Source: Pseudomonas asiatica (lineage in GTDB: Bacteria; Pseudomonadota; Gammaproteobacteria; Pseudomonadales; Pseudomonadaceae). Taken from it: a DNA stretch of 64,000 bases. The notes under the pieces are model-generated. The model made no database searches, was not told where the DNA came from, and saw nothing but the letters and a program-made list of their open reading frames with translations. The stretch lies in assembly GCF_009932335.1 (NCBI RefSeq), contig NZ_BLJF01000003.1, positions 806,001 through 870,000 on the forward strand, in the 5' to 3' direction. A program made the translations under genes and the position numbers. Every line of letters begins with the position of its first letter. The stretch's first letter is position 1. This document shows, one piece after another, positions 25,907-53,469 of the stretch.

Positions 25907-26221
25907 TCAAGGGGCGAACGGCAGTTCGCGCTTGTGCTGGGTCTTGCGGTAGGTAGCGACGATGATATCGAACGCTTCCTGGTCAACCGGCTGCCCATGC
26001 AGGAAGGCATCGATCTGCTGGTAGGTCACGCCATGGGAGGCTTCGTCCGGCTTGCCCGGTGCCAGGTCTTCCAGGTCCGCAGTCGGCACCTTCTCCACCA
26101 GTGACTCCGGCGCACCGAAGCTGCGCGCAATCGCCCGCACCTGGTTCTTCACCAGCCCGCTCAGCGGCGCCAGGTCGCAGGCACCATCACCGAACTTGGT
26201 AAAGAAGCCCATCACCTTCCT
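25907..26221 (-). pseudogene. nadE: 3' fragment of ammonia-dependent NAD synthetase
   Basis: The ~104 codons end normally ([16 protein letters not shown]) and match the C-terminal third of short Nad[20 protein letters not shown], then [15 protein letters not shown] and [11 protein letters not shown]. Everything upstream of GFFTKFGD is missing: the PP-loop SGGxDS and NAD-binding residues are absent, and the sequence beyond 26221 is unrelated with a stop. The gene was cut at this point by the island that begins here. The fragment cannot be an active enzyme. Confidence 0.9.
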
Positions 26222-26570
26222 CCCCCCGAAATAGTGCCCAATCCAGCGCAGTGACTGAGTGAGTGACTATTTTTGCTCTTGTGCAGAATCTGTATCTGCA
26301 CAGTCTGGGGATTCTGGACTGCGCCCTCTCCCAGACCTTCTTCCGATTTCGCTAGATGGGGCTGAGCTTGGTTAGGGCATAATGTCCTAGTTCGCAAGAT
26401 GCCCGCGACCCTCCGGGTAGTCCTGACCCAGGTTCAATGAGCCGTAATGGCTAGCAGTAATCCGATAGCCCCGCGCTCAGCATGGAGCTTCAGATGGTGC
26501 TTCCTTGATCGCAGATGTCAGGACAGTGTTGCATCTTGCCGATCTCGATCTAGGCATTTCTGGAGGAACC
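26222..26570. other. Left island end and nadE2 leader
   Basis: No gene. The first ~60 bases carry gtgactgagtgagtgactat, then an inverted repeat at about 26280-26300 (gtgcaga-N7-tctgcac) and an upstream region for the NAD synthetase gene. One of these may be part of the attachment site, which needs the other end to confirm. Confidence 0.4.
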
Positions 26571-28202
26571 ATGGAGCAACGTTTGAGAGTGGTAATGGCC
26601 CAGCTGAACATCCGCGTCGGGGATGTATACGGCAACGTTGAGAAGGTCATCGAAGCCGCTCATAAGGCCCGCGACGACCTCAAAGCCCAGGTCATCGTTT
26701 TCCCAGAGCTGACCCTTTGCGGTTACCCACCAGAGGATCTGCTCCTTCGCTCCAGCATGCAGAGCCGGATCGAAAAAGCCCTGCAGCATATCAAGGACGC
26801 TGTCCAAGGCATCGTCACTGTAATCGGCTTCCCTTGGGTCGAGGATGGAGCGCGCTACAACAGCTGCGCCGTGATTTCGGACGGCAAGGAGCTCGCCCGC
26901 TATAACAAGCAGCGCCTGCCTAACTATCGTGTTTTCGATGAGAAGCGGTACTTTGAGCCGGGCAGCGGCCCATGCGTAGTTAACCTCTTCGGCGTACCGG
27001 TCGGTATCACTATCTGTGAGGACATCTGGTTCTCCGAGCCGCTCAAGCAGGCTTGTGATGCCGGTGCCCAGATCATGCTGACCCTGAATGCCTCGCCGTT
27101 CCATCGTGGAAAGCAGGCTGAACGTGAAGAGCTATTGGCGACGCGTGCCAGCGAATGCTCAATCCCCATGGTCTACGTGAACCAGGTTGGTGGCCAAGAC
27201 GAACTGGTGTTCGACGGCAACAGCTTCGTAGTGGATGGCGACGGAAAGGTTACTCAGCGCGCCCCTGCTTTCGAGGAGGGGCTCTTCGTCTCGGAGTTTG
27301 AGATCAAGGAAGGCGTTTTGGTGCCCGTTCCGGCTCAGACCACCGAGCTTCTCAGCATTGAGGCCAGCGTCTACCAGGCACTGGTAGCTGGCGTTAAGGA
27401 CTATGTGCAGCGCAACGGGTTCAAAGGTGTTGTGCTAGGCCTTTCGGGTGGCATCGACTCGGCGTTGGTGCTCGCTGTTGCTGTGGATGCCTTGGGTGCA
27501 GAAAACGTTGAAGCTGTGATGATGCCGTATCACTACACGGCCCAGATGAGCCAGGACGACGCGAAAGAGGAAGCCGACATCTTGGGTGTGAAGTACAGCG
27601 TCCTGCCCATCGCATCCATGGTAGAAGCCTTCCTGACCACGCTTGCGCCAATGTTCGAAGGTTTGGGCAAAGACACCACCGAGGAAAACCTCCAGGCCCG
27701 GTGTCGCGGCACCATGCTCATGGCCATTTCCAACAAGAAGCGGTATCTCGTTCTCACGACCGGCAACAAGAGTGAGATGGCGGTCGGCTATGCGACCTTG
27801 TATGGTGATATGGCGGGTGGCTACGACGTCTTGAAGGACGTACCGAAGACCTTGGTATTCCGCCTCTGCGAATACCGCAACACCCTGGGCTACGTAATTC
27901 CGCAGCGCGTCATTGATCGTCCACCATCTGCAGAGCTTGCTCCTGACCAGAAGGACGAAGATTCCTTGCCTCCATACCCTGTCCTTGATGAGATCCTTCG
28001 CTTGTACATCGAGCAGGACTTGTCTGCCGATGCCATTACCGAGAAGGGCTTCGATCAGGAGGTTGTGAGGAAGGTAATTCGCTTGGTCGACCTGAACGAA
28101 TACAAGCGGCGCCAGGCCGCTGTGGGCCCTCGTGTCACCGAGCGCGGCTTCGGTCGTGACCGGCGTTACCCTATCACTTCTGGCTGGAGTATCGGTGATT
28201 AA
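26571..28202 (+). CDS. nadE: Glutamine-dependent NAD+ synthetase
   Basis: This enzyme amidates nicotinate adenine dinucleotide to NAD+ with ATP, taking ammonia from glutamine. The 543 residues are two domains: an N-terminal nitrilase-type glutaminase with the Glu-Lys-Cys triad in FPELTLCGYPPEDLL, YNKQRLPNY and ITICEDIW, and a C-terminal synthetase with PP-loop LGLSGGIDSALVLAVAVDAL and the TGNKSEMAVGY motif. Start 26571 has gaggaacc upstream and gives the family N-terminus. This two-domain type differs from the short NH3-dependent enzyme whose remnant lies 350 bases away, so it probably supplies the function lost on insertion. Confidence 0.95.
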   Translation: MEQRLRVVMAQLNIRVGDVYGNVEKVIEAAHKARDDLKAQVIVFPELTLCGYPPEDLLLRSSMQSRIEKALQHIKDAVQGIVTVIGFPWVEDGARYNSCAVISDGKELARYNKQRLPNYRVFDEKRYFEPGSGPCVVNLFGVPVGITICEDIWFSEPLKQACDAGAQIMLTLNASPFHRGKQAEREELLATRASECSIPMVYVNQVGGQDELVFDGNSFVVDGDGKVTQRAPAFEEGLFVSEFEIKEGVLVPVPAQTTELLSIEASVYQALVAGVKDYVQRNGFKGVVLGLSGGIDSALVLAVAVDALGAENVEAVMMPYHYTAQMSQDDAKEEADILGVKYSVLPIASMVEAFLTTLAPMFEGLGKDTTEENLQARCRGTMLMAISNKKRYLVLTTGNKSEMAVGYATLYGDMAGGYDVLKDVPKTLVFRLCEYRNTLGYVIPQRVIDRPPSAELAPDQKDEDSLPPYPVLDEILRLYIEQDLSADAITEKGFDQEVVRKVIRLVDLNEYKRRQAAVGPRVTERGFGRDRRYPITSGWSIGD

Positions 28203-28227
28203 TAGCTGAGGCAGCTGATCTATGTAC

Positions 28228-28254
28228 AAGGGGCGCTATTGCGTCCCTTTTCTA
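28228..28254. terminator. Terminator between convergent nadE and ABC-3C ATPase genes
   Basis: aaggggcgc-tat-tgcgtccctttt forms a stem with one bulge, with T residues on the + side and A-rich sequence on the other, so it may work in both directions. Confidence 0.6.
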
Positions 28255-28269
28255 TAAAGGATGGTCTCG

Positions 28270-29964
28270 CTAAAGTTTGAAAAATTTTTCTTCTTTGGTC
28301 AGTTCGAGAATGGTATTGGCTTCAAGGAACTTTTTATCAAAGCCACCAAGTTTGTCGTTTAAAATTGCTGCGATAGTTTGTATTTTCTTTTCGTTAGCAA
28401 AATCAAATAATTTTATTAGCTTGTCTTCGTCTACAACTTCAAGATAGTCTTGGGCGGTAAAAGCAGGAAGCCTGGATTTGAATTTATTCACGAAGTACAC
28501 ATAGGACATGTCGAAAGCCATTGCTGCGGCCCTCGGAACTCCGTCGCCAGTGTTCAGTTCTTCGTTTGTAATCTTGAAATCTGCCTTGCCATCTCGGCCT
28601 GCAGAAACTGTCAGTTCGTTGTGATGAGTTACGAATAATCTTTTAGTGATGTCGACATATGCTTCATTGAAGACTTTAAGCTTGGAGTTTAAGTCAGAGT
28701 AGTGCACTGCAATACTCCGCTTTACGCCGTCAACTGTAGTGAGTAGATCTTTGATTCGCTTGTTGGACACCTCTACCTCGCTTATGACGTAAGCAAGCCT
28801 GCCTCGAGCCTCCCGTAAATCCTGCATTTGCTTTTCGACCAGGATCAGTCCGCTGACATGGCTGTCTCTGGAAAGATCTTTCACCTTACTCTGTTCATCT
28901 GATATGAGTCGTGCCAAACTCATTCTCAGAGTGTCAAGTTCATCCGCTGTCTCAGCCGACATTTCTTCGACGTATGCGGCCTTGCGGCTCATTATCGAAT
29001 TATGGAATTCAATAGTTTCTTCAAGTGTCTTGCTGAGGTTTGGAACTAGCGACTTGGCCTCATTGTAGAGAGAGGTAATTTCCCCTACGTTTAGCTCCAC
29101 CAAGTTATTTTTGTATCGTTCGATTGTTTTGTTATTATAATAAAGTTTTGTTTCAAGCTTGACGATACGAGAAGTCAATGCTGCCACGCTTCTTCGGGAT
29201 TCCCGGAGTTCTGCGATGGCATAACTTTGAGATTCAAATATGTCGTACTCATCTTCTTTGATTTGAAGTTCAGAAATCTTCAGGTCGATTAGTTGGATTT
29301 CTTCCTGGCGATTCGCCAAAGGGAGGCCGCCGAGAAGTGTTCGGATACGATTATCTTCTAGTTGTATTTGCTGCTCAATTAGGTTGATCTGGCGAACGGA
29401 ATCAATGAATTCAAAGTCAAACAGATATGCATAAATCAGGTCGTAATCATTGTCGCTAGTGTACGTGTGTAGGTACGCAAGCGTGTTGTTGCTTGTGGTT
29501 CTGTTCGTTCGGAAGAACTTGCTTCGTATTGAGTTGAAGCTAGGCTGCTCTCGTGTATATCCAAATATACGAGGGAGTTCGCGAGTGAAGCCAGCATTGC
29601 TCTTGTAGACGACGCCATCAATGGTGCTAATGATTTTGATGCTCTCACGTAGGGATCCCATTTTTCTTGAGAGCACACGCGTGATTTGGTGATTAATGGA
29701 GGCGACTCTTAGAGTTAACTCAAACTTAACGTCGCCTTTGGTAAGATAGTCTTTAACCTTTTCGTTGACCTTGTTGTTGTCAGGATCTTTCCAAAGAGGC
29801 TCAGACTTTCCGCCCAAGCAGAATGCTAGTGCACGAAGTGATGTGCTTTTACCAATCTGGTTCCCAGTTTCGCCCAGGTTGGTAATAATGTTAATTCCGT
29901 CCTTGAATTGGATGGTACGTATTTCTTCGCTTCCATCAAATACAGATAATTTAATCAGTTGCAT
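28270..29964 (-). CDS. ABC-three-component-type ATPase (DUF2326-like)
   Basis: A 564-residue SMC/RecN-like ATPase. N-terminal Walker A is GETGNQIGKSTSLRALAFCL near residues 31-50; the middle (~190-430) is a long coiled coil with heptads (VKLETKLYYNNKTIERYKNN); the C-terminal lobe holds the second half of the ABC head. This matches the DUF2326-type ATPase of ABC-3C anti-phage and conflict systems. Last of four overlapping genes on the minus strand, starting within the previous gene. Base composition is clearly AT-richer than the core genome. Confidence 0.8.
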   Translation of the reverse strand: MQLIKLSVFDGSEEIRTIQFKDGINIITNLGETGNQIGKSTSLRALAFCLGGKSEPLWKDPDNNKVNEKVKDYLTKGDVKFELTLRVASINHQITRVLSRKMGSLRESIKIISTIDGVVYKSNAGFTRELPRIFGYTREQPSFNSIRSKFFRTNRTTSNNTLAYLHTYTSDNDYDLIYAYLFDFEFIDSVRQINLIEQQIQLEDNRIRTLLGGLPLANRQEEIQLIDLKISELQIKEDEYDIFESQSYAIAELRESRRSVAALTSRIVKLETKLYYNNKTIERYKNNLVELNVGEITSLYNEAKSLVPNLSKTLEETIEFHNSIMSRKAAYVEEMSAETADELDTLRMSLARLISDEQSKVKDLSRDSHVSGLILVEKQMQDLREARGRLAYVISEVEVSNKRIKDLLTTVDGVKRSIAVHYSDLNSKLKVFNEAYVDITKRLFVTHHNELTVSAGRDGKADFKITNEELNTGDGVPRAAAMAFDMSYVYFVNKFKSRLPAFTAQDYLEVVDEDKLIKLFDFANEKKIQTIAAILNDKLGGFDKKFLEANTILELTKEEKFFKL

Positions 29965-30191
29965 AAAGAAATATCACCTTGCTTCGTTAGCTCTACACAT
30001 CCAGTGATGTAGAGCCAGTCGAGCGCGTACAGAATGTAAGCAAAAGAAACACGCTCAAATCTATCTTGATATTTTTCGAAAAGTGCTAGTGGGCTCATGG
30101 AGCCAAATTCGCTAGACTTTAAGACCATCAGTAAGCGTCCACCGACTATGTAAAGGCTTTTAAGCGGTGAGCTTGTATTCTGAATGATCAT
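29955..30191 (-). CDS. ABC-3C small middle component (MC6-like)
   Basis: A 78-residue protein (MIIQNTSSPLKSLYIVGGRL) with a winged-helix look (SPLALFEKYQDRFERVSFAY, LDWLYITGCVEL, then a short beta end). Position and size match the middle component that accompanies DUF2326-type ATPases. It overlaps both neighbours by 4 and 10 bases, so it is translationally coupled. Family assignment is from size, context and pattern only. Confidence 0.65.
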   Translation of the reverse strand: MIIQNTSSPLKSLYIVGGRLLMVLKSSEFGSMSPLALFEKYQDRFERVSFAYILYALDWLYITGCVELTKQGDISLCN

Positions 30192-30778
30192 GCAGGAGGC
30201 TCCAATATCTTACAGTGAATGAAGCCATAGCAAACTATTAACTGTCCGGCCCATTCTATAAGCTCAGATTCAACGCCTTGAAAGACAGTGTTAGTTCCAA
30301 CTATAAGCTCGGAGACCTTCTTTACAAGCTCATCCGATCCCAGCCGTATTACATTCAGCTTTTGCTCAGGGGAAGCTGGTCGCTCAGCCTGCCTCATGAA
30401 CAATTCTCGCCTGGCGGTTTTATACTTCTGATTTATAGCGTAAAGAAATCTTTTCTGTGCGCCAGGATCTTCGTCATCGATAGTTGAGATAAGGCTTTCA
30501 ATGAGATCCATGTAGCCGACATTGTCAATGATTAACTCCGAATACACCGAGACCCTGTTGTACTCAATTTTTTCATCGACCTCAGGGTAATCTATCTCGA
30601 CGTCTGGGATCTCATCATACGGGGTATGAGTCGACACAATTTTCATTAGTAACGGATTGAGCAGAGATGAGATGGCCGCAGAAGTTGCGGCTATCGTGAC
30701 AGGCCCACTGCCGGTGCTGACTACTGTTAACCCGCCGTTCGATGCCGTAGCTTCAATATCTGGCGTTAATAGGCTCAT
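30188..30778 (-). CDS. ABC-3C third component with C-terminal adapter-like domain
   Basis: A 196-residue protein. The N-terminus has a Gly/Thr/Val-rich stretch (GLTVVSTGSGPVTIAATS, residues ~15-32) and the rest is helical and charged, ending GVESELIEWAGQLIVCYGFI as in ABC-3C C-terminal domains. No nuclease or other catalytic motif is visible; the usual large effector domain is absent. The N-terminal motif closely resembles the C-terminal motif of the membrane protein encoded just upstream (TTVVSTGRGNVTVHKK), which is unusual and may link the two proteins. Confidence 0.55.
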   Translation of the reverse strand: MSLLTPDIEATASNGGLTVVSTGSGPVTIAATSAAISSLLNPLLMKIVSTHTPYDEIPDVEIDYPEVDEKIEYNRVSVYSELIIDNVGYMDLIESLISTIDDEDPGAQKRFLYAINQKYKTARRELFMRQAERPASPEQKLNVIRLGSDELVKKVSELIVGTNTVFQGVESELIEWAGQLIVCYGFIHCKILEPPA

Positions 30779-31083
30779 TTTTTATGTACAGTAACATTGC
30801 CGCGACCCGTGGAGACAACCGTAGTTGAGCTATGATCTGAGGTAGCGGAAATCGTCGGTTTTCTGCTGAATGCCTGCAAAATGATCAGCAAGAAAAAGCA
30901 AAATACAGTAGCTGCAAGGGAGTACAGGAACAGCTTGTAGATGGATTCGCTTGGGAGGCCCTTGAGCAAGTCAGACTTAAACCAACCGGCGTGCATCGAG
31001 TAGAACATCGCAGCTCCCACTGCAGCAAAGCCGCCTCCAGCGGTGGCGATTACCTTCAAGAAGCCGAACATTCCTTTCTCCAT
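30775..31083 (-). CDS. Small membrane protein of the ABC-3C operon
   Basis: A 102-residue protein with two hydrophobic segments (~8-28 and ~47-70), then a cytoplasmic tail ending TTVVSTGRGNVTVHKK. First gene of the four-gene operon and coupled by ATGA to the next. A membrane partner with a short beta-prone tail matching the N-terminus of the next protein suggests it is the membrane effector or anchor of the system. No database family is recognised. Confidence 0.6.
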   Translation of the reverse strand: MEKGMFGFLKVIATAGGGFAAVGAAMFYSMHAGWFKSDLLKGLPSESIYKLFLYSLAATVFCFFLLIILQAFSRKPTISATSDHSSTTVVSTGRGNVTVHKK

Positions 31084-39018: not shown

Positions 39019-40086
39019 ATGAAGATCAGTCTGTTGCAAGAAGGCGAAACCATCCAAGGCGTCAGCGTTCCGCAGCGTTATCAGGAAATGATCGCCGAAG
39101 CCTGTCTCGCTGATAAGCTCGGTTTCTACGCCTGGGGCACCTCTGAGCAGCACTTCAACCCACCGAAATTTACTGTCTCCGCGCCTGAGGTGCTGTACGC
39201 AGCTATCGCCGCACAGACCAAGGACATCAAATTGCGCACCATGTGTGCAGTGATGCTGCAGTGGAACCACCCAATCCTCGTCGCTGAACGAACCTCGACC
39301 TTGGACATTGTCTCCAATGGCCGAGCAGAAATCGCCACTGCGCGTTCGAACAACCTGGTGACTCTCGAAGCCTTCGGCGTCGACCCGAGCACTACTCGTG
39401 CGCAGTGGGAAGATGGTATGGAAGTGCTCATCAAAGCCTTCGCAGACGAAACGCTGCAGCATGAAGGCCCAATCTGGAGTATTCCACCCCGCACCATTGT
39501 TCCACGCCCGGTTCAGACCCCGCATCCACCAATCTACGTATCGGCCTCCAGCGTGCAGACGCATAGCAATGCCGGCGAGCGTGGGATTGGCGTGCTCAGT
39601 TTCGAAAACTACTTCGGCTTCGATTACCTCCAAGAGTGCATCGACGCCTATCGTGCGGGCCTAGCCACGCACAAGAGCTCCGTACCGCGCCGTACCGAGC
39701 AAGCAGGCCTCTACGTCGCCACTGCGTTCTGCGATACCACTCGAGCTCGAGCAATTGATATCGCTCGCGACGTCACCACCAGCTACTTCAAATTCATCAT
39801 CGACCTCTACGCCCCGCTCGGCAAAAAAGGGTCGTATGAGTATCTGGATGGTCGAATGCTTCGCCTGCTCGATCACGAGGGCGACATGGACTTCCTCGTT
39901 TCGGAAACACCGTCCGTGATGGTCGGCGATCCAGACGACTTCATTAAGCGCATTCGCAAGCTACAGCAGATGGGCATCGACGAGATCCTGCTCCGAATCG
40001 ATGGTATCCCTCACGAAGACATCATGCGCTCCATCGAGCTGATCGGTCGTGAAGTTATGCCTGTCATCAATGGGGGTGCCAAATGA
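39019..40086 (+). CDS. Luciferase-like flavin-dependent monooxygenase
   Basis: A 355-residue LLM-class oxidoreductase, starting MKISLLQEGETIQGVSVPQR. The TIM-barrel pattern is visible: AWGTSEQHFNPPK near residue 39-51, then KLRTMCAVMLQWNHPILVAE and GRAEIATARSNN. These enzymes use reduced FMN from a separate reductase and oxygen. The flavin reductase follows immediately (ATGA overlap), forming a two-component monooxygenase. Substrate unknown; relatives act on aldehydes, sulfonates, pyrimidines and other small molecules. Confidence 0.88.
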   Translation: MKISLLQEGETIQGVSVPQRYQEMIAEACLADKLGFYAWGTSEQHFNPPKFTVSAPEVLYAAIAAQTKDIKLRTMCAVMLQWNHPILVAERTSTLDIVSNGRAEIATARSNNLVTLEAFGVDPSTTRAQWEDGMEVLIKAFADETLQHEGPIWSIPPRTIVPRPVQTPHPPIYVSASSVQTHSNAGERGIGVLSFENYFGFDYLQECIDAYRAGLATHKSSVPRRTEQAGLYVATAFCDTTRARAIDIARDVTTSYFKFIIDLYAPLGKKGSYEYLDGRMLRLLDHEGDMDFLVSETPSVMVGDPDDFIKRIRKLQQMGIDEILLRIDGIPHEDIMRSIELIGREVMPVINGGAK

Positions 40087-40613
40087 GCCAGGTGCAGATG
40101 AAAGCGCCTCTCGAGGCGCCAGAGATCGACGTGCAGATCTTCAAAGAGGCTATGGCCGACTTCCCAGCAGCAGTCACGATCATCACTACCTGGGACAATG
40201 AGGGCCGCCCTGTTGGGGCGACTCTCTCGGCGGTCTCATCCCTGTCGGCGTCTCCTCCCATGATGCTGGCCTGCTTTGATCGCAAATCCAAAACCCTCGA
40301 ATGCCTCACTCAGGGCAAGCCTTTCCTGATCCATGTGCTTGGTGAAGGCCAAGAACATTTGGCGATGCTGTTCGCAGGAAAGTGCGCCGACAAGTTTGAG
40401 GGCATCGAGTGGAAGCGCGGAAAGCTCGGCCTTCCCACGATTTGTAATGCAGCATGCGCTCTGGCCTGTGAGGTAGCAGAGGTTCTGCCGGGTGGCGACC
40501 ACCTCATCGTAACCGGGCATATCCGCCACATCGACCACAACAACCAGCAGACACCGCTTCTCTACCATCGCAGGAAAATGTTCGCCGTACCCGCTGCTGG
40601 AGCGCCTGTATGA
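40083..40613 (+). CDS. Flavin reductase family protein
   Basis: A 176-residue protein with the flavin-binding fold of the HpaC/RutF type: FPAAVTIITTWDNEGRPVGA, then SLSASPPMMLACFDRKS and VEVLPGGDHLIV-like GDHLIVTGHI. It would supply FMNH2 to the LLM monooxygenase, with which it overlaps by four bases at its start; it also overlaps the next gene by four bases. Confidence 0.88.
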   Translation: MSQVQMKAPLEAPEIDVQIFKEAMADFPAAVTIITTWDNEGRPVGATLSAVSSLSASPPMMLACFDRKSKTLECLTQGKPFLIHVLGEGQEHLAMLFAGKCADKFEGIEWKRGKLGLPTICNAACALACEVAEVLPGGDHLIVTGHIRHIDHNNQQTPLLYHRRKMFAVPAAGAPV

Positions 40614-40912
40614 AGCAGGTGGTGGTGGTTTACGGAACTCCTGCGGATACCCAAGCGTTCGAACGTCACTACCGGGAAGTGCATGTGCCGCTCGTGAAGC
40701 AAATGCCGAACCTCGCGAAGTTCGAAGCCAGCATTACCAGCACTGCAACCGCCCAAAAAGACTGGCATGCGATTGCGGTACTGAGTTTCCGTAATCAGGA
40801 AGAAATGGACGCATCGCTGAGCTCCCATGCTGGTGTTGCAGCCGTGGAGGACGTATCGAACTTCGCCAGCGGTGGCTGCCAGATCTACACCTGCGAATTC
40901 GAAAGCTTTTAA
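40610..40912 (+). CDS. EthD-like protein
   Basis: A 100-residue ferredoxin-like protein of the EthD/dimeric alpha-beta barrel type (MKQVVVVYGTPADTQAFERH, then YREVHVPLVKQMPNLAKFEA). Members appear in many oxygenase clusters as helpers or isomerase-like enzymes. It overlaps the reductase gene by four bases, so it belongs to the operon. Role inferred from context. Confidence 0.75.
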   Translation: MKQVVVVYGTPADTQAFERHYREVHVPLVKQMPNLAKFEASITSTATAQKDWHAIAVLSFRNQEEMDASLSSHAGVAAVEDVSNFASGGCQIYTCEFESF

Positions 40913-40936
40913 GAATAACTAGAGCGAGGCCTTGCT

Positions 40937-42439
40937 ATGAATCTACCACTGGATCCTTTGAAGCACCTGAGCGCGAATGTTCAGGCCTTTCTGAAGCAAC
41001 CAATGAAACTGATGATCGACAATCAGTTCGTAGAAGCTTGCGAAGGTAAGGTGTTCCCAACGTATGACCCGGCTACCAGTCAGCTGATCGCGAATGTGTC
41101 CGAAGCTGGAATCGCCGATGTGGAGGTGGCGGTCGCTTCTGCCAACCGTGCGCTGGTCGGGCCGTGGGCGAAAATGCTGCCATCTGAACGTGAGGCTGTG
41201 ATTCGCAGGCTCGCCGACCTCATAGAAAAGCACGGCGATGATTTGGCCCAAATTGAGAGCCTGGATAGCGGCAAGCCTGCTGCGCAGATTCGAGCTGTGG
41301 ACATCGAGCTGTCCATCGGGGCGCTTCGCTACAACGCCGGCTGGCCGACGAAGCTCCATGGCCAGACGATCCCGGTGAGCGCGCCAGATATGCACGTCTA
41401 CACTCGCCGAGAGCCTCTCGGGGTCATCGCTGCAATCGTGCCGTGGAACTTCCCGCTCTGCCAGGCTTGCTTCAAACTTGCACCCGCACTGGCTGCTGGT
41501 TGCACTGTCGTGCTGAAGCCTGCAGAGCAAACGCCTCTCTCGGCGCTGTATCTCGCCAAGCTGGCAATTGAGGCGGGTCTGCCTTCTGGAGTTCTGAATG
41601 TCCTCCCAGGCTTTGGCAAGGTTGCCGGCCAGGCTCTAGTCGAACACCCAGGCATCGCGAAAATCGCTTTCACTGGCTCCGAGGCAGTTGGCAAACACAT
41701 TGTCCGAACTGCGGCCAGCGACCTCAAACACGTCTCCATGGAGCTTGGGGGCAAGAACCCGAACGTAATCTTCGCCGACGCCGATCTCGATCAAGCTGCC
41801 GCAACCGCAGCAATGGCCATCTTCTTCTACTCAGGCCAAGTCTGCGCTGCGGGTTCCCGCTTGATGGTGGAGCGCAAGGTTTACGAACGCGTCCTGGAAA
41901 CGGTAATGGGGGAAACCGCAAGGCTGAAAGTTGGCCACGGTCTCTCGCCAGACACCTCTCTGGGCCCACTGATCTCTGCAGATCAGTTCGCCAGGGTCAG
42001 CGGATTTGTCGAGCGCGCCAAAGCTGATGGGATCGAATGCGTCATGGGTGGCAAAAAAGCGGGTGGGGCTCTCTCTGATGGCCACTTCCTTGAGCCAACG
42101 ATCCTGTTGAATGCGTCTGACAATCAGGAAGTGGTAGCCGATGAAATTTTCGGCCCCGTCCTGGTAGTTCAAACATTCGAATCGATTGACGAGCTCACCA
42201 CCCGAGCGAACAACACCGGCTTTGGTCTGTCAGCTGGCGTGTGGACACGCGACGTAGGCAAGGCACATAAGGTAGCCGCAGCACTCCAGGCTGGTACAGT
42301 GTGGATCAATACTTACGGAAACTTCGATTGCGCTGCACCATGGGGTGGCTACAAGCAGTCCGGGTATGGTCGTGACAATGGCGCTGAAGGCATCGAAAAA
42401 TTCCTTCAGACCAAGACAGTCTGGACGAACTGCAACTGA
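40937..42439 (+). CDS. Aldehyde dehydrogenase
   Basis: A 500-residue NAD(P)-dependent aldehyde dehydrogenase. The Rossmann-type region has PWNFPLCQACFKLAPALAAG; catalytic Glu lies in SMELGGKNPN and catalytic Cys in FFYSGQVCAAGSR near residue 300. The C-terminal NTYGNFDCAAPWGGYKQSG is usual. It follows the EthD gene by 24 bases with agcgagg as ribosome site. It would oxidise an aldehyde made by the monooxygenase. Substrate unknown. Confidence 0.93.
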   Translation: MNLPLDPLKHLSANVQAFLKQPMKLMIDNQFVEACEGKVFPTYDPATSQLIANVSEAGIADVEVAVASANRALVGPWAKMLPSEREAVIRRLADLIEKHGDDLAQIESLDSGKPAAQIRAVDIELSIGALRYNAGWPTKLHGQTIPVSAPDMHVYTRREPLGVIAAIVPWNFPLCQACFKLAPALAAGCTVVLKPAEQTPLSALYLAKLAIEAGLPSGVLNVLPGFGKVAGQALVEHPGIAKIAFTGSEAVGKHIVRTAASDLKHVSMELGGKNPNVIFADADLDQAAATAAMAIFFYSGQVCAAGSRLMVERKVYERVLETVMGETARLKVGHGLSPDTSLGPLISADQFARVSGFVERAKADGIECVMGGKKAGGALSDGHFLEPTILLNASDNQEVVADEIFGPVLVVQTFESIDELTTRANNTGFGLSAGVWTRDVGKAHKVAAALQAGTVWINTYGNFDCAAPWGGYKQSGYGRDNGAEGIEKFLQTKTVWTNCN

Positions 42440-42446
42440 TCCTCGA

Positions 42447-42471
42447 GTGACGCCGTCTACATGATGGCGTC
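42447..42471. terminator. Possible hairpin after the aldehyde dehydrogenase gene
   Basis: tgacgcc-N11-ggcgtca forms a stem just past the stop. No T-run follows. It could end the operon. Confidence 0.35.
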
Positions 42472-42582
42472 AGCTCAGCGTAACCGTCCGGCCAACTCAC
42501 CTTCCTGACCCCGACGCCAAAGGCGATGGTGTCCACCTAATTTAAGTGGACACCATTTCTAGCCTTTTAAGCGGGTCTTTCC

Positions 42583-42915
42583 ATGCAGTCACAACGCCGT
42601 TCCTATTCAAAATCCTTCAAGGCCCAAGTTGTCCAAGAGTGCGCCCAGCCCGGCGCATCGATTGCCAGCGTCGCGCAGAAGCACAGCCTTAACGCGAACC
42701 TCGTACATAAATGGATTAGGGTACTCACGAACAAAACTATGGCGCTGCAACCTGCTTTCATTCCAGTGCCCTTGCCGCTAGCCGGAGGACATTCGCAGGC
42801 AGCTTCATCAAGTATCTGCATTGAAATCCAGCACCCGCGTGGCACCGTCAAAGTGAACTGGCCGACCGAAAGCGCTGTCGCCTGTGCCACCTTTCTGCGA
42901 GACCTGTTGGAATGA
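42583..42915 (+). CDS. tnpA: IS66 accessory protein TnpA
   Basis: A 110-residue protein with a HTH region (SYSKSFKAQVVQECAQPGAS, then SVAQKHSLNANLVHKWIRV). It is the first gene of the IS66 unit and overlaps the next (ATGA). Confidence 0.88.
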   Translation: MQSQRRSYSKSFKAQVVQECAQPGASIASVAQKHSLNANLVHKWIRVLTNKTMALQPAFIPVPLPLAGGHSQAASSSICIEIQHPRGTVKVNWPTESAVACATFLRDLLE

Positions 42916-43247
42916 TTCGGATCGATGCCATCTGGCTTGCCACCGAGCCTATGGACATGCGCGCCGGTACCGAGACCGCGCTGGCCAGGGTGATCGCGGT
43001 GTTCGGTGTGGCGAAGCCGCACTGCGCATACCTCTTCGCTAATCGCCGTGCCAACCGAATGAAAGTCTTGGTGCATGACGGTGTGGGCATTTGGCTGGCA
43101 GCGCGACGATTGAACCAAGGCAAGTTTCATTGGCCCGGCATCCGTCACGGATCGGAAGTCGAACTCGATAACGAGCAACTTCAAGCCTTGGTACTGGGTT
43201 TGCCGTGGCAGCGGGTCGGCGCAGGCAGCGCGATCACAGTGCTTTAG
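42912..43247 (+). CDS. tnpB: IS66 Orf2-like protein TnpB
   Basis: A 111-residue protein of the IS66 Orf2 family (MIRIDAIWLATEPMDMRAGT, and ANRMKVLVHDGVGIWLAARR). It starts in the tnpA stop. Confidence 0.9.
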   Translation: MIRIDAIWLATEPMDMRAGTETALARVIAVFGVAKPHCAYLFANRRANRMKVLVHDGVGIWLAARRLNQGKFHWPGIRHGSEVELDNEQLQALVLGLPWQRVGAGSAITVL

Positions 43248-43308
43248 CCCCTGCCATTAGCCCGTCGGTTTATCGCTGTTGACGACCTGCTCTGACACAA
43301 TCAGCGGC

Positions 43309-44844
43309 ATGACTTCCTCGCCCAATCTCGACCAGATGACACCGGAACAGCTGCGCGGCTTGGCCGAACAGGCTATGCAGTTGCTGTCCCAGGTCGACTC
43401 CATGAGCCAGAAAATCCAACGCCTCGAAACGGTCAACGAGCAACTGGCTCATGAAATCGCCATCCTCAAGCGACACAAGTTCGCCAAGCGCAGCGAGCAA
43501 CTGAGCCCCGACCAAGGCAGTCTGCTTGATGATCTGCTCGATACCGATATCGCAGCTATCGAAGCCGAGCTGAAGGCAGCCAATCCGCCGGCCGCACCGG
43601 CCGAGCCACGTCATAAGCCCAAGCGTGCACCACTGCCGCCGCAGTTTCCGCGAACCGTGATCCGTCACGAACCAGAGAATACTCAGTGCGTGTGCGGCTG
43701 CCAGCTTCAGCGAATCGGCGAAGACGTCAGCGAGAAGCTCGATTACACTCCGGGCGTGTTCACAGTTGAGCGGCATGTGCGTGGAAAATGGACGTGCCGT
43801 CAGTGTGAAACACTGATCCAGGCGCCTGTACCGGCCCAAGTGATCGACAAGGGCATCCCGACCGCAGGCCTTTTGGCCCACGTGATGGTGGCGAAGTTCG
43901 CCGACCATTTACCGCTGTACCGGCAGGAGAAGATTTTTGGTCGGGCCGGACTGCCCATCGCCCGTTCGACACTGGCGCAATGGATCGGACAGACCGGTGT
44001 GCAGCTCCAGCCTCTGGTCGATGCGCTGCGTGAGCATGTGTTGGCCCAGGGCGTGATCCACGCCGATGAGACCCCGGTTCAGATGCTCGCACCAGGCGAA
44101 AAGAAAACCCACCGCGCTTACGTGTGGGCCTATAGCACCACGCCTTTCTCGGCCCTAAAGGCCGTGGTCTACGACTTCAGCCCCAGCCGTGCCGGCGAAC
44201 ATGCGCGTAACTTCCTGGGCACGTGGAACGGTAAGCTGGTCTGCGATGACTTCGCCGGCTACAAGGCCAGCTTCGAGCTGGGCATCACCGAAATCGGCTG
44301 CATGGCCCATGCACGCCGCAAATTCTTCGACCTGCATGCAGCCAATAAAAGCCAGTTGGCGGAGCAGGCGCTTCACTCGATTGGCGGGTTGTATGAAGTC
44401 GAGCGACACGCCAAGGAAATGAGCGACGAAGCCCGCTGGCGATTACGTCAGGAAACAGCGGTGCCCATCGCTGAAAAACTGCATGAGTGGATGTTGGCCC
44501 AACGCGAACTTGTGCCCGAGGGTTCGGCCACGGCCAAGGCCCTGGATTACAGCCTTAAACGCTGGGTAGCGCTGACGCGCTACCTGGAAGATGGTGCTGT
44601 GCCCATCGACAATAACCAGATCGAGAATTTGATCCGGCCGTGGGCGCTTGGGCGCTCGAACTGGTTATTTGCCGGGTCGCTGCGCAGTGGAAAAAGGGCG
44701 GCGGCAATCATGAGCCTGATCCAGTCGGCGCGTATGAATGGGCACGATCCGTATGCCTATCTCAAGGATGTACTGATGCGGCTTCCGACACAGCGGGCGA
44801 GCGAAATCACGCAATTACTCCCGCAGCATTGGATGCTTGCCTGA
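43309..44844 (+). CDS. tnpC: IS66 transposase TnpC
   Basis: A 511-residue transposase. N-terminal coiled coil and Zn-binding CVCGCQLQRIG / CRQCETLIQ region (~125-170); DDE core with HADETPVQML (first Asp region), VCDDFAGYKASFELG (second Asp) and NNQIENLIRPWALGRSNWLF (Glu and C-terminal motif). Start ATG 43309 is chosen; a TTG at 43279 is less likely. The frame is intact. Confidence 0.93.
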   Translation: MTSSPNLDQMTPEQLRGLAEQAMQLLSQVDSMSQKIQRLETVNEQLAHEIAILKRHKFAKRSEQLSPDQGSLLDDLLDTDIAAIEAELKAANPPAAPAEPRHKPKRAPLPPQFPRTVIRHEPENTQCVCGCQLQRIGEDVSEKLDYTPGVFTVERHVRGKWTCRQCETLIQAPVPAQVIDKGIPTAGLLAHVMVAKFADHLPLYRQEKIFGRAGLPIARSTLAQWIGQTGVQLQPLVDALREHVLAQGVIHADETPVQMLAPGEKKTHRAYVWAYSTTPFSALKAVVYDFSPSRAGEHARNFLGTWNGKLVCDDFAGYKASFELGITEIGCMAHARRKFFDLHAANKSQLAEQALHSIGGLYEVERHAKEMSDEARWRLRQETAVPIAEKLHEWMLAQRELVPEGSATAKALDYSLKRWVALTRYLEDGAVPIDNNQIENLIRPWALGRSNWLFAGSLRSGKRAAAIMSLIQSARMNGHDPYAYLKDVLMRLPTQRASEITQLLPQHWMLA

Positions 44845-44877
44845 GGCAGGCTAAGTGGACTTCGCCAAATAGTCAGC

Positions 44878-45429
44878 TCAAAGGCTGATTGGCATCAACA
44901 ATTCGGAAGCGACTTTTCTCAGCATGTAGGTTTCGCGCAGAATTGACTGCCCCATCGAAGACTCGTGACGCTGCATGACGGCTTCATTGTGTGCGATGGC
45001 TTCATGCAGGTTGATCCAGACAGGCCGCATACCATTAGCGATTTCGTGGCTTTCCATTCTCACCGGCTCTAGCTGGGGCGCTACTTCGCATTGATAAAAA
45101 TGCGAGGTCATGTGCATCAGATCGTACTGTGGCTTTTGGTAGGGCCGGTACTCCTCGATGTAACCGTAGTGCTGGAGCACCTGTATTTCACGAGCACCAG
45201 TCTCTTCCTCAAGCTCACGCTTCAGGCCTGCGACAATGTCCTCGTCACCATCAAGGCCGCCTCCAGGAAAGCTGAAATCGTTATAGCGCTCGGTGAACAG
45301 CAACAGGATCTGTTCACCCCGCATCACGATGCCGCGAGCTGCATGTCGACGGAATACTCTGCCCTGCTTGGATTTCAGCTCGGGGTGAACAATTTCAGTT
45401 ATGAGTTGCATGTGGTCTCGTAGCGGCAA
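44878..45429 (-). CDS. NUDIX hydrolase
   Basis: A 183-residue protein with the NUDIX box GGGLDGDEDIVAGLKRELEEE-type (G-x5-E-x7-REUxEExGU; the second Glu region GLKRELEEETGAREI is standard). It would hydrolyse a nucleoside diphosphate linked to another moiety. Its stop lies 12 bases from the IS66 end. No partner identifies the substrate. Confidence 0.85.
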   Translation of the reverse strand: MPLRDHMQLITEIVHPELKSKQGRVFRRHAARGIVMRGEQILLLFTERYNDFSFPGGGLDGDEDIVAGLKRELEEETGAREIQVLQHYGYIEEYRPYQKPQYDLMHMTSHFYQCEVAPQLEPVRMESHEIANGMRPVWINLHEAIAHNEAVMQRHESSMGQSILRETYMLRKVASELLMPISL

Positions 45430-45503
45430 GATCAGTTAGTCATCGTCCAGGGTGGCCACGGTATTTCCTCAGTTCTGGAAATACTGTGGCCAGTGGAACT
45501 GGC

Positions 45504-46355
45504 TCAGCGAAGCAGCAATAAGGGTACAGTGGATGTACGCAGCATCGTCGTGGTCGTGCTGCCTATCAGAAACTGCCTGATGCGTGAGTGCCCGTACGCC
45601 CCCATGACCAAGAGGTCAATGCCGTGCTCTGCCTGATACGCATGCAGTGTGGACTCTACTTCGCCTGGGCGGATCTCGGAATGCACCAGCGAGCCGGAAG
45701 ACGCAAGCGTGGTTCGTGCCTTCTCCAGCGCGTTCTGGTTGTCTTCAGAATCCGTTCCAACCATGACGATATGAATTGGCAGGCCTTCGCACAGCGGGCT
45801 TGAAGCAAGCATCTGTAAGGTCTTGTGGCCTGTTGCGCTGCCGTCAAATGCCACCATGACCGTTTCAGGTTTCCTGAAATGGCTGGTTGTAATCAGGGTG
45901 GGGCGGTGGATAGTTCGGACTATCGCTTCAATCTGGCTGCCAAGACTTTGGGCACTGCGCGTGCTGTCCTCACCGACTCTTCCAATCACCAGTAACCGAA
46001 TATCGTCTTGGAGATCGCTCAGGCTCTCGACGAGATGGCCATGGCGCTGCTTCATATCAGGTGACATGGCGCCAGAGTGAACTGTTCGCTCGCGAGCTTT
46101 TTCAAGCATGTGCTGCCCATGCTCCAACGCCAGTTTTGCCCGCTGCGCATCCAGCATGGCCAACTCTTCCAGCAGATGTTCTCTGCTACCGAGACCGATA
46201 TTGCCGCTGAGGTCAGCGGATGCAGGATATTTCTCCTTATCCAGCACATGAAGCAAGGTCAGGGGAGCGCTGAGTCGTTGCGAGGCCCATGCTGCGTAAT
46301 CGCAGACCGCCAATGAGGATTGTGAGTTATCAATGCATGCCATTACGCGGGTCAT
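45504..46355 (-). CDS. Universal stress protein, two Usp domains
   Basis: A 283-residue tandem Usp protein. Domain 1 starts MTRVMACIDNSQSSLAVCDY; domain 2 near 155 with TVMVAFDGSATGHKTLQMLA. The ATP-binding G-x2-G-x9-G-S/T is visible as LVMGAYGHSRIRQFLIGST at the end of domain 2. It is 11 bases downstream of a SulP transporter, on the same strand, and may modulate it. Confidence 0.88.
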   Translation of the reverse strand: MTRVMACIDNSQSSLAVCDYAAWASQRLSAPLTLLHVLDKEKYPASADLSGNIGLGSREHLLEELAMLDAQRAKLALEHGQHMLEKARERTVHSGAMSPDMKQRHGHLVESLSDLQDDIRLLVIGRVGEDSTRSAQSLGSQIEAIVRTIHRPTLITTSHFRKPETVMVAFDGSATGHKTLQMLASSPLCEGLPIHIVMVGTDSEDNQNALEKARTTLASSGSLVHSEIRPGEVESTLHAYQAEHGIDLLVMGAYGHSRIRQFLIGSTTTTMLRTSTVPLLLLR

Positions 46356-46366
46356 TGTCGTTCTCC

Positions 46367-47854
46367 TTAGTGGCTCATGAGCTTGTCGATGGCACCGGGT
46401 TTGTCATGCACGCCGAAGCGGTCAACGATTGTCGCGCTGGCTTCATTGAGACCGAGCACTTCAACCTCAGCGCCTTCGCGTCGGAACTTGATCACGACCT
46501 TATCCAGCGCTGCGACGGCGGTGATATCCCAGAAATGCGCCTGTGTGAGATCGATGGTGACCTTGTTGAGCGCCTCCTTGAAGTCAAAAACCTCAGTGAA
46601 CTTGTCCGCAGAGCTAAAGAACACCTGGCCCACGACGCGGTAAGTCCGATGCGATTTCGTCTCTTCAAGAGTGCTCTTGATATCCAGGTAGTGCCCGACC
46701 TTGTTTGCGAAGAACAGGGAGGCCAGCAGCACACCTACCAGTACGCCGTAAGCCAGATTGTGAGTGGCCACGACGACCACGACGGTCGCCACCATGACGA
46801 GGTTGGTCGACAGCGGATGCTCTTTCAGATTACGCAAGGAATCCCAGCTAAAGGTGCCGATGGACACCATGATCATCACAGCCACGAGTGCCGCCATAGG
46901 GATTTTGGAGAGCCACTCGCCAAGAAATACCACCATCAGCAGCAGGAAAACGCCGGCACACAATGTCGAGAGACGGGTGCGGCCACCAGATTTCACGTTG
47001 ATGATCGACTGGCCGATCATGGCGCAACCTGCCATGCCGCCAAGCATGCCGGCAGCGATGTTGGCCACACCCTGGCCTTTGCACTCGCGGTTTTTGTTGC
47101 TGGTGGTGTCGGTAAGGTCGTCGACGATGGTCGCGGTCATCATTGATTCGAGTAGACCCACTACTGCCAACGCAGCCGAGTACGGGAAAATGATGCGCAG
47201 GGTTTCAAAATTCAGCGGAACTTCAGGCCAGAGGAAGATCGGGAGCGTATCAGGCAGTTGGCCCATGTCACCGACGGTGCGGATATCCAAACCGAGGTAA
47301 ATGGCGATGGCAGTCAGCGTCAGAATGCACACCAATGGAGAGGGAATCACCTTGCCGATTTTCGGTACATACGGGAACAGGTAGATGATTCCCAGGCCCG
47401 CAGCGGTCATGGCATAGACATGCCAGGTGACATTGGTCAGCTCAGGCAATTGCGCCATAAAAATCAGAATCGCTAATGCGTTTACGAAGCCGGTGACTAC
47501 CGAGCGTGAAACAAAGCGCATCAACGAGCCGAGCTTCAGGTAGCCGGCAAGGATTTGAAGTACGCCACATAGTAGCGTCGCGGCCAGCAGGTACTGGAGT
47601 CCATGCTCTTTTACCAGCGTAACCATCAGCAGTGCCATGGCGCCTGTCGCCGCCGAGATCATTCCGGGGCGCCCGCCGACAAAGGCGATGACAGCACAGA
47701 TACAGAAGGAGGCGTAGAGACCGACTTTGGGATCTACCCCGGCGATGATGGAAAAGGCGATGGCTTCCGGGATCAGCGCGAGTGCGACCACCAGCCCCGC
47801 GAGCACGTCGGCACGGACGTTGGAAAACCACGTTTGTCTAAGTTTTTGCAGCAT
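46367..47854 (-). CDS. SulP family anion transporter with STAS domain
   Basis: About 495 residues, a SLC26/SulP transporter of ~12-14 membrane helices with a short STAS domain at the C-terminus ([20 protein letters not shown]). The SulP signature region [20 protein letters not shown] is near residue 30-50. Family members import sulfate or bicarbonate. Start ATG 47854 ([10 protein letters not shown]) is favoured; a start 12 bases earlier is possible. Confidence 0.9.
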
Positions 47855-47866
47855 ATAAATATCCAA

Positions 47867-48336
47867 GGCAAAGCATCGCGCACGCCAAGGGAGTGGCGAG
47901 CGAATCGATACAAATTCAAATTTTGAGGATTTTTTGCTGTGTGCTTAAGGTGTAAAACCAGGCGTACAGCAGTGAGCACCCGCGAGCGAGGCTAGCGGAA
48001 GCAGGTTGTTGCGAGGGGGCGTAGCGCTAAGGCGGCGTAGGCTGCCAGTAGATCGTTTGGAGTACAGTCATGCTGATGTTCCTGTAGCTCAAGGGGTATG
48101 CGGAGCCGAAGTATACAATGAAGCCATCGTCGATTGCGACCCGCTGGCAGGCTCTGCATGACCTACGTCAGATACAGGCTTATTCAATGGGTATACCTGC
48201 GGGCAAGGCTTTGTTTTCCACCCGTTCTTGTCCGAGCTGGTCTGTGTGCTGAGGGGTGAGTTGGCCAGACGGTTACAGCTCAGCTTCGTTGGGCACCGCT
48301 TCATCCTCTTTAGCCGACTACCAGGTCGGCTTTTTT
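47867..48336. other. sulP-Lrp gap with orphan + strand terminator
   Basis: No protein gene is supported. It should hold the sulP promoter near 47900-47940 (AT-rich). It ends with a terminator that works on the + strand although no + strand gene precedes it. Confidence 0.45.
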
Positions 48337-48338
48337 TC
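48312..48338 (+). terminator. Intrinsic terminator on + strand with no gene upstream
   Basis: agccgac-tacca-ggtcggct followed by seven T. It lies just after the stop of the minus-strand regulator. The T-run orientation fits + strand transcription. Confidence 0.7.
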
Positions 48339-49386
48339 AGGAGCGGCCAGGGCCCAAGCGCTTATAGAGCAGATCGATGTATGGGAAACTCTCAATGCGC
48401 TCGATCCCTTCAACCATCCGAAGCTTGTCATCGATCAGGTCGAAAAGCGCGATCCTAGATTCGCATACCACCTCGACAAACAGGTCGAATCGACCGGCGC
48501 ATATGGTGATGTAAGACACCTTCTCAAAGCCGCGCAGACGGTCAGCTACGTCCTTTACCCGAACACCTGGACGTACAGTCACCGCTACCCAAGCAAGAGC
48601 TCGATTTTCCAAGTTCATTGGGCTAGTGATGGCCATAATGTTGAGCAGCCCAGATTCGAGCAAAGCATTCAAACGCCCCCGCACCTGGGACTCGGAAATA
48701 TCTAAAGCGTTTGCGATGTTTTTCAATGGCGCCCGACCATCAAAGCTCAGTTCATGGACGATCTTCCTGTCCACATCGTCCATTTCCTTGCTCAAAACTC
48801 CCTGCGACTGAGCCGCAGGAGCGCGACCGAAGAACTGCGCTCTCTGGTAGAACACGCTGTAGTAAGGAAAAACCTCGATCCCTTTGACCCCCTTCAGTAC
48901 AGCGACCTCATGATTGAGGACGTACTGCATGCGGGCCATGTCAGAGCAAATGATCTCCACGAAGAGCGAGAAACGACCAGTCGTGGTGACGACATAATCG
49001 ACATCAGCGAGGCCTATCAGAGATTCCGCAACGTCGGAAACTGGGGAGCTGAGATCAAGGGTAATGCCCACCAAAGCCCCTGCTTGATAGCCCAGGGAAG
49101 CAGGGTCTGTCAGAGCAACGATCTGGATAACATTCTGCTCAAGGAGCTGGTGCACTCTGTTACGCACGGTGCGCTCAGAAATATCTAGCTCGCGTGCTAT
49201 GGCCACAAAAGGTCGACGACCATCCTCTTGGAGGTGGGCAATAATCTCCCGGTCGGTAGCTGACAAGGGCTGCTCTGAAAGCGGGCCATGGCCATTCGGA
49301 TGGAGGCGAGTTACAGCGGGCGCTTCTTTCAGATCAGCTGTATTCATGTCGATGCGGTCAAGGAGGCGAATCGTCGTATTATCCAC
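48337..49386 (-). CDS. Double-domain Lrp/AsnC family regulator
   Basis: A 349-residue protein that is two Lrp/AsnC units joined. Unit 1: HTH LSATDREIIAHLQEDGRRPF ... ISERTVRNRVHQL and ligand domain to ~190. Unit 2: HTH LSKEMDDVDRKIVHELSFDG ... ISESQVRGRLNALL and ligand domain. Single-unit Lrp proteins are ~150-165 residues, so this is a fusion or tandem duplication. It is encoded next to ribBA- and cobW-type genes on the minus strand and probably controls the nearby catabolic genes. Confidence 0.88.
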   Translation of the reverse strand: MDNTTIRLLDRIDMNTADLKEAPAVTRLHPNGHGPLSEQPLSATDREIIAHLQEDGRRPFVAIARELDISERTVRNRVHQLLEQNVIQIVALTDPASLGYQAGALVGITLDLSSPVSDVAESLIGLADVDYVVTTTGRFSLFVEIICSDMARMQYVLNHEVAVLKGVKGIEVFPYYSVFYQRAQFFGRAPAAQSQGVLSKEMDDVDRKIVHELSFDGRAPLKNIANALDISESQVRGRLNALLESGLLNIMAITSPMNLENRALAWVAVTVRPGVRVKDVADRLRGFEKVSYITICAGRFDLFVEVVCESRIALFDLIDDKLRMVEGIERIESFPYIDLLYKRLGPGRS

Positions 49387-49408
49387 CCCCTCCCAGTTTG
49401 GGCAAGCG

Positions 49409-50524
49409 TTAAACTACACCTTCAGCCGGTAAGATCTCGACAACTTCCAGGTCATACCCTGCCAAACCGATGAACTTAGCGGGAGAGCCCATGTTCCGAA
49501 TTTTCTTTACCCCCAGATCCTGCAAAATCTGAGCCCCCGTGCCTAGCTCAGCATAAGTGCGGGAATGAGCCCGCTGGCATTTACGACTAGGCGTGGTTAA
49601 TTGAGGCACACGCTCAAGCAAAGCTTGAGACGTTTCATGTGTGGCGAGTATCACCACTACACCATGCCCTACCGAAGCGACTTTCTCCAAAGCCCCCCAT
49701 AGCGTCCAGCTACTGGGGATGGTGCATTCGGCTCCAACCAGGTCGCATAGAGGATCTATGGCATGCACTCTTACCAAAGTGGGTTCATCGCCATGTAATC
49801 GCCCCATGACCATGGCCATGTGAACACCACCCTCTATGACGTCCTCATAGGTCACCAAGCGAAAGATGCCATGTACCGTTGGTAATTCCCGCTCGCCGAT
49901 ACGCACAACCGTGCGCTCTGTCGTCAGGCGGTGATGGATCAGGTCAGCGATAGTTCCGATTTTGATGCCATGCCTCTCGGCGAATGCTTCAAGATCACCT
50001 CGGCGCGCCATGCTCCCATCATCGTTCATCACTTCCACAATTACGGAGGCAGGCGTCAGTCCGGCCAAGCGCGCAAGGTCACACCCCGCCTCGGTATGGC
50101 CAGCCCTTGTAAGCACACCTCCCTCACGGGCTCGTAAAGGAAAAATATGGCCAGGCTGGACTAGATCATCAGCGGTAGAGTCAGGATGCACAGCAGTCAA
50201 AACGGTGTGAGCTCGATCTGCTGCCGAGATACCCGTCGTGACACCGTGGGCGGCCTCAATCGAGACTGTAAAAGCGGTCGTGAAGGCGCCCCGATTACTG
50301 GGCACCATCTGCTCCAGGCCCAAGCGGACACAATGATCATCAGTCAGAGTAAGGCAGATGAGACCTCGCGCTTCTCGTGCCATGAAATTGATGATGTCCG
50401 GAGTACATTTTTCAGCAGCGATCAGCAGATCACCTTCGTTTTCCCGGTCTTCGTCATCCACCAGAAGGACAAGCTTGCCCTGACGAAAGTCATCGATGAT
50501 TTCTTCGATTGTGTTGAAAGGCAT
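49409..50524 (-). CDS. RibBA-like: DHBP synthase with degenerate GTP cyclohydrolase II domain
   Basis: A 371-residue fusion. The N-terminal 3,4-dihydroxy-2-butanone 4-phosphate synthase domain is well conserved ([16 protein letters not shown] acidic loop; [16 protein letters not shown]). The C-terminal domain keeps the fold ([17 protein letters not shown] ... [15 protein letters not shown]) but lacks the CxxGDxF and RCDC zinc residues of GTP cyclohydrolase II, so that half is probably inactive. Extra RibB activity may raise riboflavin supply for the flavin enzymes in the island. Start at 50524. Confidence 0.85.
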
Positions 50525-50558
50525 ATTGTTATTGGTCGCCTAAGAGTGGAGTACGGAG

Positions 50559-53406: not shown

Positions 53407-53469
53407 CTGCCAATTCAGCCGGTTGTCAAAGACCGGCCCTCACAAGAAAAGGTTGCAGGAGATAATAAA

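Follow-up and report, generated by a model that had tools for sequence, protein, structure and literature searches.

The window analysed here is a stretch of 64,000 nucleotides that covers positions 806001-870000 of contig 3 of the source genome (5.97 Mb in three contigs). It enters an island of about 41.4 kb that lies between the two halves of nadE, the host gene for NH3-dependent NAD synthetase, and has a lower G+C content (53.7%) than the flanks taken (60.5% and 61.3%). The features of the locus are as follows, in window coordinates; the window ends at 64000 and the numbering is continued past its end.

25907-26215, minus strand: 3' half of nadE (NH3-dependent; 102-codon frame), PRK00768 positions 165-265 of 266
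26209-26230, minus strand: attR and island end, on the nadE coding strand ...GGGGGGAGGAAG followed by GTGATGGGC..., from comparison with intact nadE of relatives and six other elements
26218-26570, plus strand: terminal region of the island and leader of the island nadE, from an alignment of five islands
26571-28202, plus strand: glutamine-dependent NAD synthetase, 543 aa, NF010588/PRK13981, Pfam CN_hydrolase and NAD_synthase
28203-60903: variable cargo with candidate defence, catabolic and transport genes and an IS66 transposase
60904-61413, minus strand: ginD, 169 aa, by gene order and partners; weak regulator-type matches
61410-63539, minus strand: ginC, 709 aa, no Pfam or NCBIfam match; homolog in five of six other islands
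63536-66046, minus strand: ginB, 836 aa, tyrosine recombinase match just below the Pfam cut-off (window ends inside it, at 64000)
66245-67507, minus strand: ginA, 420 aa, matches tyrosine recombinases
about 67627: second island end and attL
67610-68152, minus strand (contig 873610-874152, past the window end): 5' half of nadE, PRK00768 positions 2-166

The first-pass annotation of this DNA had stated that only the last 100 or so codons of nadE remain and that they stop at about 26217. Both statements hold, since the remnant is the 102-codon frame and the host-like sequence ends at about 26217 when compared with intact nadE of relatives. The missing 5' part, which the annotation proposed to look for next to the other end of the island, was located there by profile searches beyond the window; it adjoins the far island end and is followed by pncB, and an azurin gene, identified with Pfam, flanks the 3' half. 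The break lies at codons 173/174 of 275. Both halves are still open frames in the source genome, and they could be expressed and assemble into a working enzyme that would make the island NadE redundant. However, the break falls at Pfam position 134-135 of the NAD_synthase domain and leaves the SGGVDS loop, at about residue 50, severed from the remainder, and the split tmk of Pseudomonas putida KT2440 forms no working enzyme according to its authors (PMC10653934). Assembly of the two halves is for these reasons highly improbable, and we treat the host nadE as interrupted. The gene is essential in Pseudomonas. A second complete nadE, the finding that the annotation had named as speaking against its reading, was not obtained: a PF02540 search of the whole source genome gave matches at six places. 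Three of them are the island gene and both halves of nadE; the other three are weak (23-34 bits, frames of 379-526 aa) and are taken for putative other ATP-pyrophosphatases. Apart from the island gene, this search found no complete NAD synthetase.

The first island gene, described earlier as an intact glutamine-dependent NadE some 350 bases away, indeed starts 354 bp inside the island end. Its product scores 795.7 bits against PRK13981 (cut-off 479) and aligns over its full length with the solved structure 5kha. Residues E46, K113 and C149, which we take to be the glutaminase triad, are the same in 5kha. The function proposed for this replacement enzyme derives from its family and its conservation. 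The roughly 200 nt 5' of the ATG (26370-26570) are well kept in five islands despite diverged synonymous sites, and this conserved stretch may be a regulatory leader. An RNA switch was considered and rejected, as the sole Rfam match was at chance level (E 5.8) and the fold was not clearly above shuffles (z -1.12). A sigma-70 consensus scan of 26150-28400 detected no promoter-like site.

At the opposite end of the island four frames of 420, 836, 709 and 169 aa follow each other on the same strand, all of them open. In GinA the residues R207, K252, H335, R338, H368 and Y377, presumably the catalytic residues of a tyrosine recombinase, are invariant among nine aligned GinA proteins. Such an arrangement resembles the genomic islands called GInts. 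As described in the available part of the report by Bardaji et al. (2017, PMC5385486), these are defined by a ginABCD operon that encodes three integrase-type proteins and a small fourth one, in which each of the four genes is needed for excision as well as for integration; they excise as a circle, are bordered by imperfect direct repeats of 10-17 nt, carry 2.5-70 kb of cargo and have a short AT-rich 3' end. By its ginABCD make-up, set against this published description, the element is assigned to the GInts. The likeness extends to ginABCD at one end, variable cargo and a specific site, and may include short imperfect end repeats (PMC5385486). With its 41.4 kb the island also falls within the published size range.

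The cargo itself is varied. The gene at 58914-60026 on the minus strand matches the candidate anti-phage family PD-T7-5 (E 3e-111). Directly beside the island nadE, at 28270-31083 on the minus strand, lies a cluster of three small genes and one for a DUF2326/AAA protein that weakly matches the candidate defence family PDC-M68B (E 4e-17); this cluster recurs as a block in three other islands. The region 39019-55064 encodes a luciferase-like monooxygenase, an aldehyde dehydrogenase, a riboflavin-synthesis fusion, an amidohydrolase and a cytosine/purine-type permease, and looks catabolic by its gene content.

The recurrence of this arrangement was examined in a set of 398 Pseudomonas genomes, one per species and with the source genome included. 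NH3-dependent NadE was found above the curated cut-off in 376 of these and glutamine-dependent NadE (E up to 1e-60) in 25. No NH3-NadE match was obtained in 15 genomes, of which 12 have glutamine-dependent NadE as the sole NadE found, and three (G075, G222 and G329; highly fragmented drafts in 650-880 contigs) matched neither type. Seven genomes gave sub-threshold NH3-NadE matches only: the source genome, G322, G369, G086, G332, G034 and G122. In the first five of these nadE is split by an insertion, and all five carry glutamine-dependent NadE beside the 3' half. G122 has a partial NH3-nadE plus a complete glutamine-dependent NadE. G034 and G234 were rejected as insertions, since their nadE pieces are adjacent or overlapping (a frameshift in G034). 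When GTDB contigs were scanned with the GinA alignment, four loci were confirmed, in Pseudomonas sp. ANT_H12B (G086), P. cichorii MAFF 302096 (G369), P. fluorescens HK44 and Pseudomonas sp. S31. The last two are additional cases of a split nadE with glutamine-dependent NadE beside its 3' half, and in each of the four genomes PF02540 finds a single complete NAD synthetase, along with the two halves and a pair of weak matches. In viral contigs none of 103 pattern matches for GinA was confirmed, and there were zero pattern matches for the island NadE. Among phage records, 7 contain a glutamine-dependent NadE at E up to 1e-30, and among plasmid records 36 do so at E up to 1e-60; none of these reaches 60% identity.

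All seven elements found in this way sit at the identical nadE site and carry glutamine-dependent NadE at the equivalent position, starting 323-395 bp from the nadE remnant motif and directed into the island. Their length is 21.3-42.6 kb in the five contiguous cases. For G332 the comparison of islands covers about 20 kb at each end, and the G086 element is spread over two contigs. When the frames of the source island were compared with the six other islands (tblastn at E up to 1e-15, with half of the frame or more covered), glutamine-dependent NadE, GinA and GinB were matched in all six and GinC and GinD in five, whereas no other frame was matched in more than four, overlapping reading frames of gin and nadE aside. 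The source host and G322 are 96-97% identical in their nadE halves, but their GinA proteins share 61% and their glutamine-dependent NadEs 83% identity, which argues for separate acquisition and for movement of the element between hosts.

The attachment site lies within the codons of a conserved 19-residue stretch of nadE. The site pattern was matched by 13 of 15 intact nadE loci, 12 of them reading GTGATGGG and one GTAATGGG. In the source genome the element sits between GTGAT and another copy of GTGATGGGC, and its ends are TTCTACCCCCCTACACT... and ...GGGGGGAGGAAG. The exact core common to both ends of the source element is 5 nt (GTGAT), and in four of the seven elements the core copies at the two ends are unequal. 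Joining the flanks in silico, which was done for five of the seven elements (HK44 and S31 left out), restored a 275-aa open nadE frame in three of them (source genome, G322, G086); in G369 and G332 the frame was open too. Since the joined flanks give an intact 275-aa frame, precise excision should heal nadE.

The position of the glutamine-dependent NadE in these elements can be viewed in two ways. It could be ordinary beneficial cargo, for example for the use of glutamine when ammonia is scarce, with the cut in nadE being incidental. Published GInts bear varied cargo (PMC5385486), and glutamine-dependent NadE is native elsewhere, being the sole NadE found in the 12 Pseudomonas genomes mentioned above. 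Yet its presence in seven of seven elements, at a constant terminal place while the other cargo varies, speaks against such a role, and the thyA-cutting relatives described below, 19 of 19 of which also have an extra complete ThyA, argue against it as well. We consider the ordinary-cargo explanation improbable. A further idea, that native glutamine-dependent NadE occupies the old nadE locus, was dropped: in about 1.5 kb of flank at 21 loci (L014-L034) azurin gave no match and pncB matched at L034 only. This last locus (G084:C32) has a 43%-identical glutamine-dependent NadE with a pncB-like gene and a nucleotidyltransferase-looking gene as neighbours, and its genome also has an intact NH3-NadE.

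In favour of a replacement, the island NadE is under strong purifying selection. Its dN/dS is 0.019-0.045 (12 of 21 pairs), compared to 0.071-0.172 for GinA (15 of 21 pairs), the remaining pairs being saturated at synonymous sites in both cases. In a tree of 27 rows the seven island NadEs form one clade on a long stem with support 100/100, the position of which among the native Pseudomonas glutamine-dependent NadEs is weakly supported (84/84). The seven elements are one lineage, and the occurrence of the enzyme in all of them reflects retention and not seven independent captures.

A comparable organization is found in more distant GInts. Within the genus set, the GinA relatives that come next, in 19 genomes and at 39-46% identity, are associated with thyA. 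In 18 of the 19 printed loci the thyA frame extends to the element, ending in ...RSSDVFL, ...RSNDLGL or near variants, and at the remaining locus (G269, with ginA in two pieces) the 5' part of thyA lies immediately ahead of the first ginA piece. According to PF00303, all 19 genomes contain a 5' thyA piece, a 3' piece and a complete extra ThyA, whereas a single complete ThyA, without any pieces, is present in each of the two controls (source genome and G322) and in the distant G271. The complete ThyA is on one contig with ginA in 17 of the 19, and in the six elements that were fetched it directly follows ginD. In an order-wide sample GinA was matched in 4 of 322 genomes: the source, G135 (one of the thyA group) and two from other genera. 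The loci of these last two are in thyA; one has a distant ThyA (28-30% identity) after ginD, and at the second the contig stops too early to show whether a ThyA follows. The P. putida plasmid pZXPA-20-602k (L209, 5880-12742) carries a gin-type operon followed by a thymidylate synthase gene that shares 4 nt with the last gin gene. Past the first recombinase of this operon, the two frames checked gave no ThyA match and no Pfam match, and on this plasmid the replacement appears to travel without a cut thyA visible at that end.

Still more distant GInts, in G271 and G105, cut a DUF808 gene, which we assume to be non-essential. In G105 a complete DUF808 copy lies beside the 3' half (G105:C39:2892-4460 and G105:C46:5540-5989), while in G271 the halves were found with no complete copy. 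The copy in the one and its absence in the other indicate that replacement is neither limited to essential targets nor universal in gene-cutting GInts.

In view of the above, we propose that a GInt has split nadE, that it brings a glutamine-dependent NadE as substitute and so makes the insertion survivable, and that gin-mediated excision heals the gene. We assign this reading a probability of about 0.86. The DUF808 elements, the plasmid with no cut thyA seen at one end and the unequal core copies in four of the seven elements weigh against it. Target-gene replacement, already put forward in the first-pass annotation, is borne out by the seven of seven islands with glutamine-dependent NadE, the strong purifying selection and the lack of another complete NAD synthetase among the matches found. 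On integration, the island NadE would take over the last step of NAD synthesis, which would render a normally lethal insertion survivable, and the host probably depends on the island thereafter. The survivability and lethality assumed here are drawn by analogy from the experiments on the tmk island of KT2440. If the gin proteins excise the element precisely at the core common to both ends, nadE would be rebuilt, and this step should be survivable as well. Being an enzyme of a different type, the replacement would offer the attachment site no close match; the best match to the site in the island gene is 14 of 21 bases. If part of the island were deleted or gin function were lost, the host would come to depend on the island nadE, and loss by deletion would be lethal.

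The same annotation had suggested that the element is locked in place. This part needs modification, as the joined flanks give an intact nadE frame and gin excision should be survivable; what stands is that deletion or decay of the gin genes should lock the element. Judged by their gene arrangement, two of the seven appear to have lost the ability to excise. In G086, ginB matches residues 24-498 only and ginC and ginD were not found. In G332 the island ends (G332:C1, 3242900-3243412 and 4033210-4033536) are 790 kb apart and in opposite orientation, as if an inversion had broken the island within its cargo; blastn (E 1e-5) of 20 kb at one end against 25 kb at the other gave no shared repeat that would explain such an inversion. 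In both genomes the island NadE is open and the remaining NH3-NadE matches are two halves only. These two stuck elements, together with the low excision frequencies given in the available text of the GInt paper (PMC5385486), could also mean that the host is locked from the start, with excision so rare that the swap is in effect permanent and only remnants of attachment sites are left. This is unlikely in view of the four open gin frames and the in-frame rejoining of flanks in the source genome, and of the different histories of element and host in the source genome and G322, which point to movement between hosts. Under the replacement mechanism proposed here, the lock would be a late stage that follows gin decay and not a starting condition.

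Islands that replace the gene they interrupt have been described before. Wirth et al. (2023, PMC10653934) established by experiment that the only essential thymidylate kinase of P. putida KT2440 is the dNMPK encoded on its tmk island. The arrangement occurs in several genera, with four conserved genes that encode two tyrosine recombinases, a TetR/AcrR-type regulator and one protein of unknown function (PMC10653934). Like the nadE island, this large island splits an essential gene and brings a non-orthologous replacement, but target and enzyme are different, and the word GInt does not occur in the available part of that paper (PMC10653934). From the resemblance of the published four-gene list to ginABCD we infer that the tmk islands may well be GInts. 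The recA island (RME) of Vibrio cholerae is an earlier case. Rapa et al. (2014, PMC4405046) predicted that its excision restores recA, amplified an empty site and consider that the carried recA avoids the harm of disrupting recA. Like the nadE island, it cuts its target at a specific site and has the substitute and the integrase at opposite ends (PMC4405046). However, the substitute in RME is a recA 23% divergent from that of the host (PMC4405046), whereas the nadE island brings another enzyme type, and the recombinases named for RME are a phage integrase and XerS (PMC4405046).

Differences from the published GInts concern the target. In the available text the sites lie in ssb and in genes for an ABC transporter and a ribonucleotide reductase (PMC5385486), and here the site is in nadE; and while those targets are probably not fully inactivated (PMC5385486), the nadE island combines a mid-gene cut with a replacement. 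The terms 'nadE', 'NAD', 'thyA' and 'thymidylate' are absent from the main text of the GInt paper (PMC5385486). A search of the literature on nadE with islands or recombinases and on thyA or thymidylate synthase showed no nadE or thyA GInt among the matches listed, as judged by titles and the starts of abstracts. As far as these searches show, the nadE and thyA GInt lineages are new, whereas GInts as such and target-replacing islands for tmk and recA were already known.

The results link GInts, the tmk island of KT2440 and the recA island, which had been described apart. They suggest that essential enzyme genes can be precise landing sites for large islands that bring a substitute. We lean, with some reserve, towards a broader view in which many GInts are gene-swapping islands, each lineage hitting the codons of a conserved core segment in the gene for a widely conserved and often essential enzyme (nadE, thyA and, by published gene content, tmk) and carrying a dedicated, sequence-distinct replacement as a fifth core gene. 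If this is true, replacement would open essential genes as landing sites, and decay of the gin genes would make the swap permanent. This would amount to addiction without a toxin and would provide a concrete route for the non-orthologous exchange of essential enzymes for other types. It also serves as a warning that maps of essential genes and metabolic models for Pseudomonas strains may misplace functions like NAD or thymidylate synthesis.
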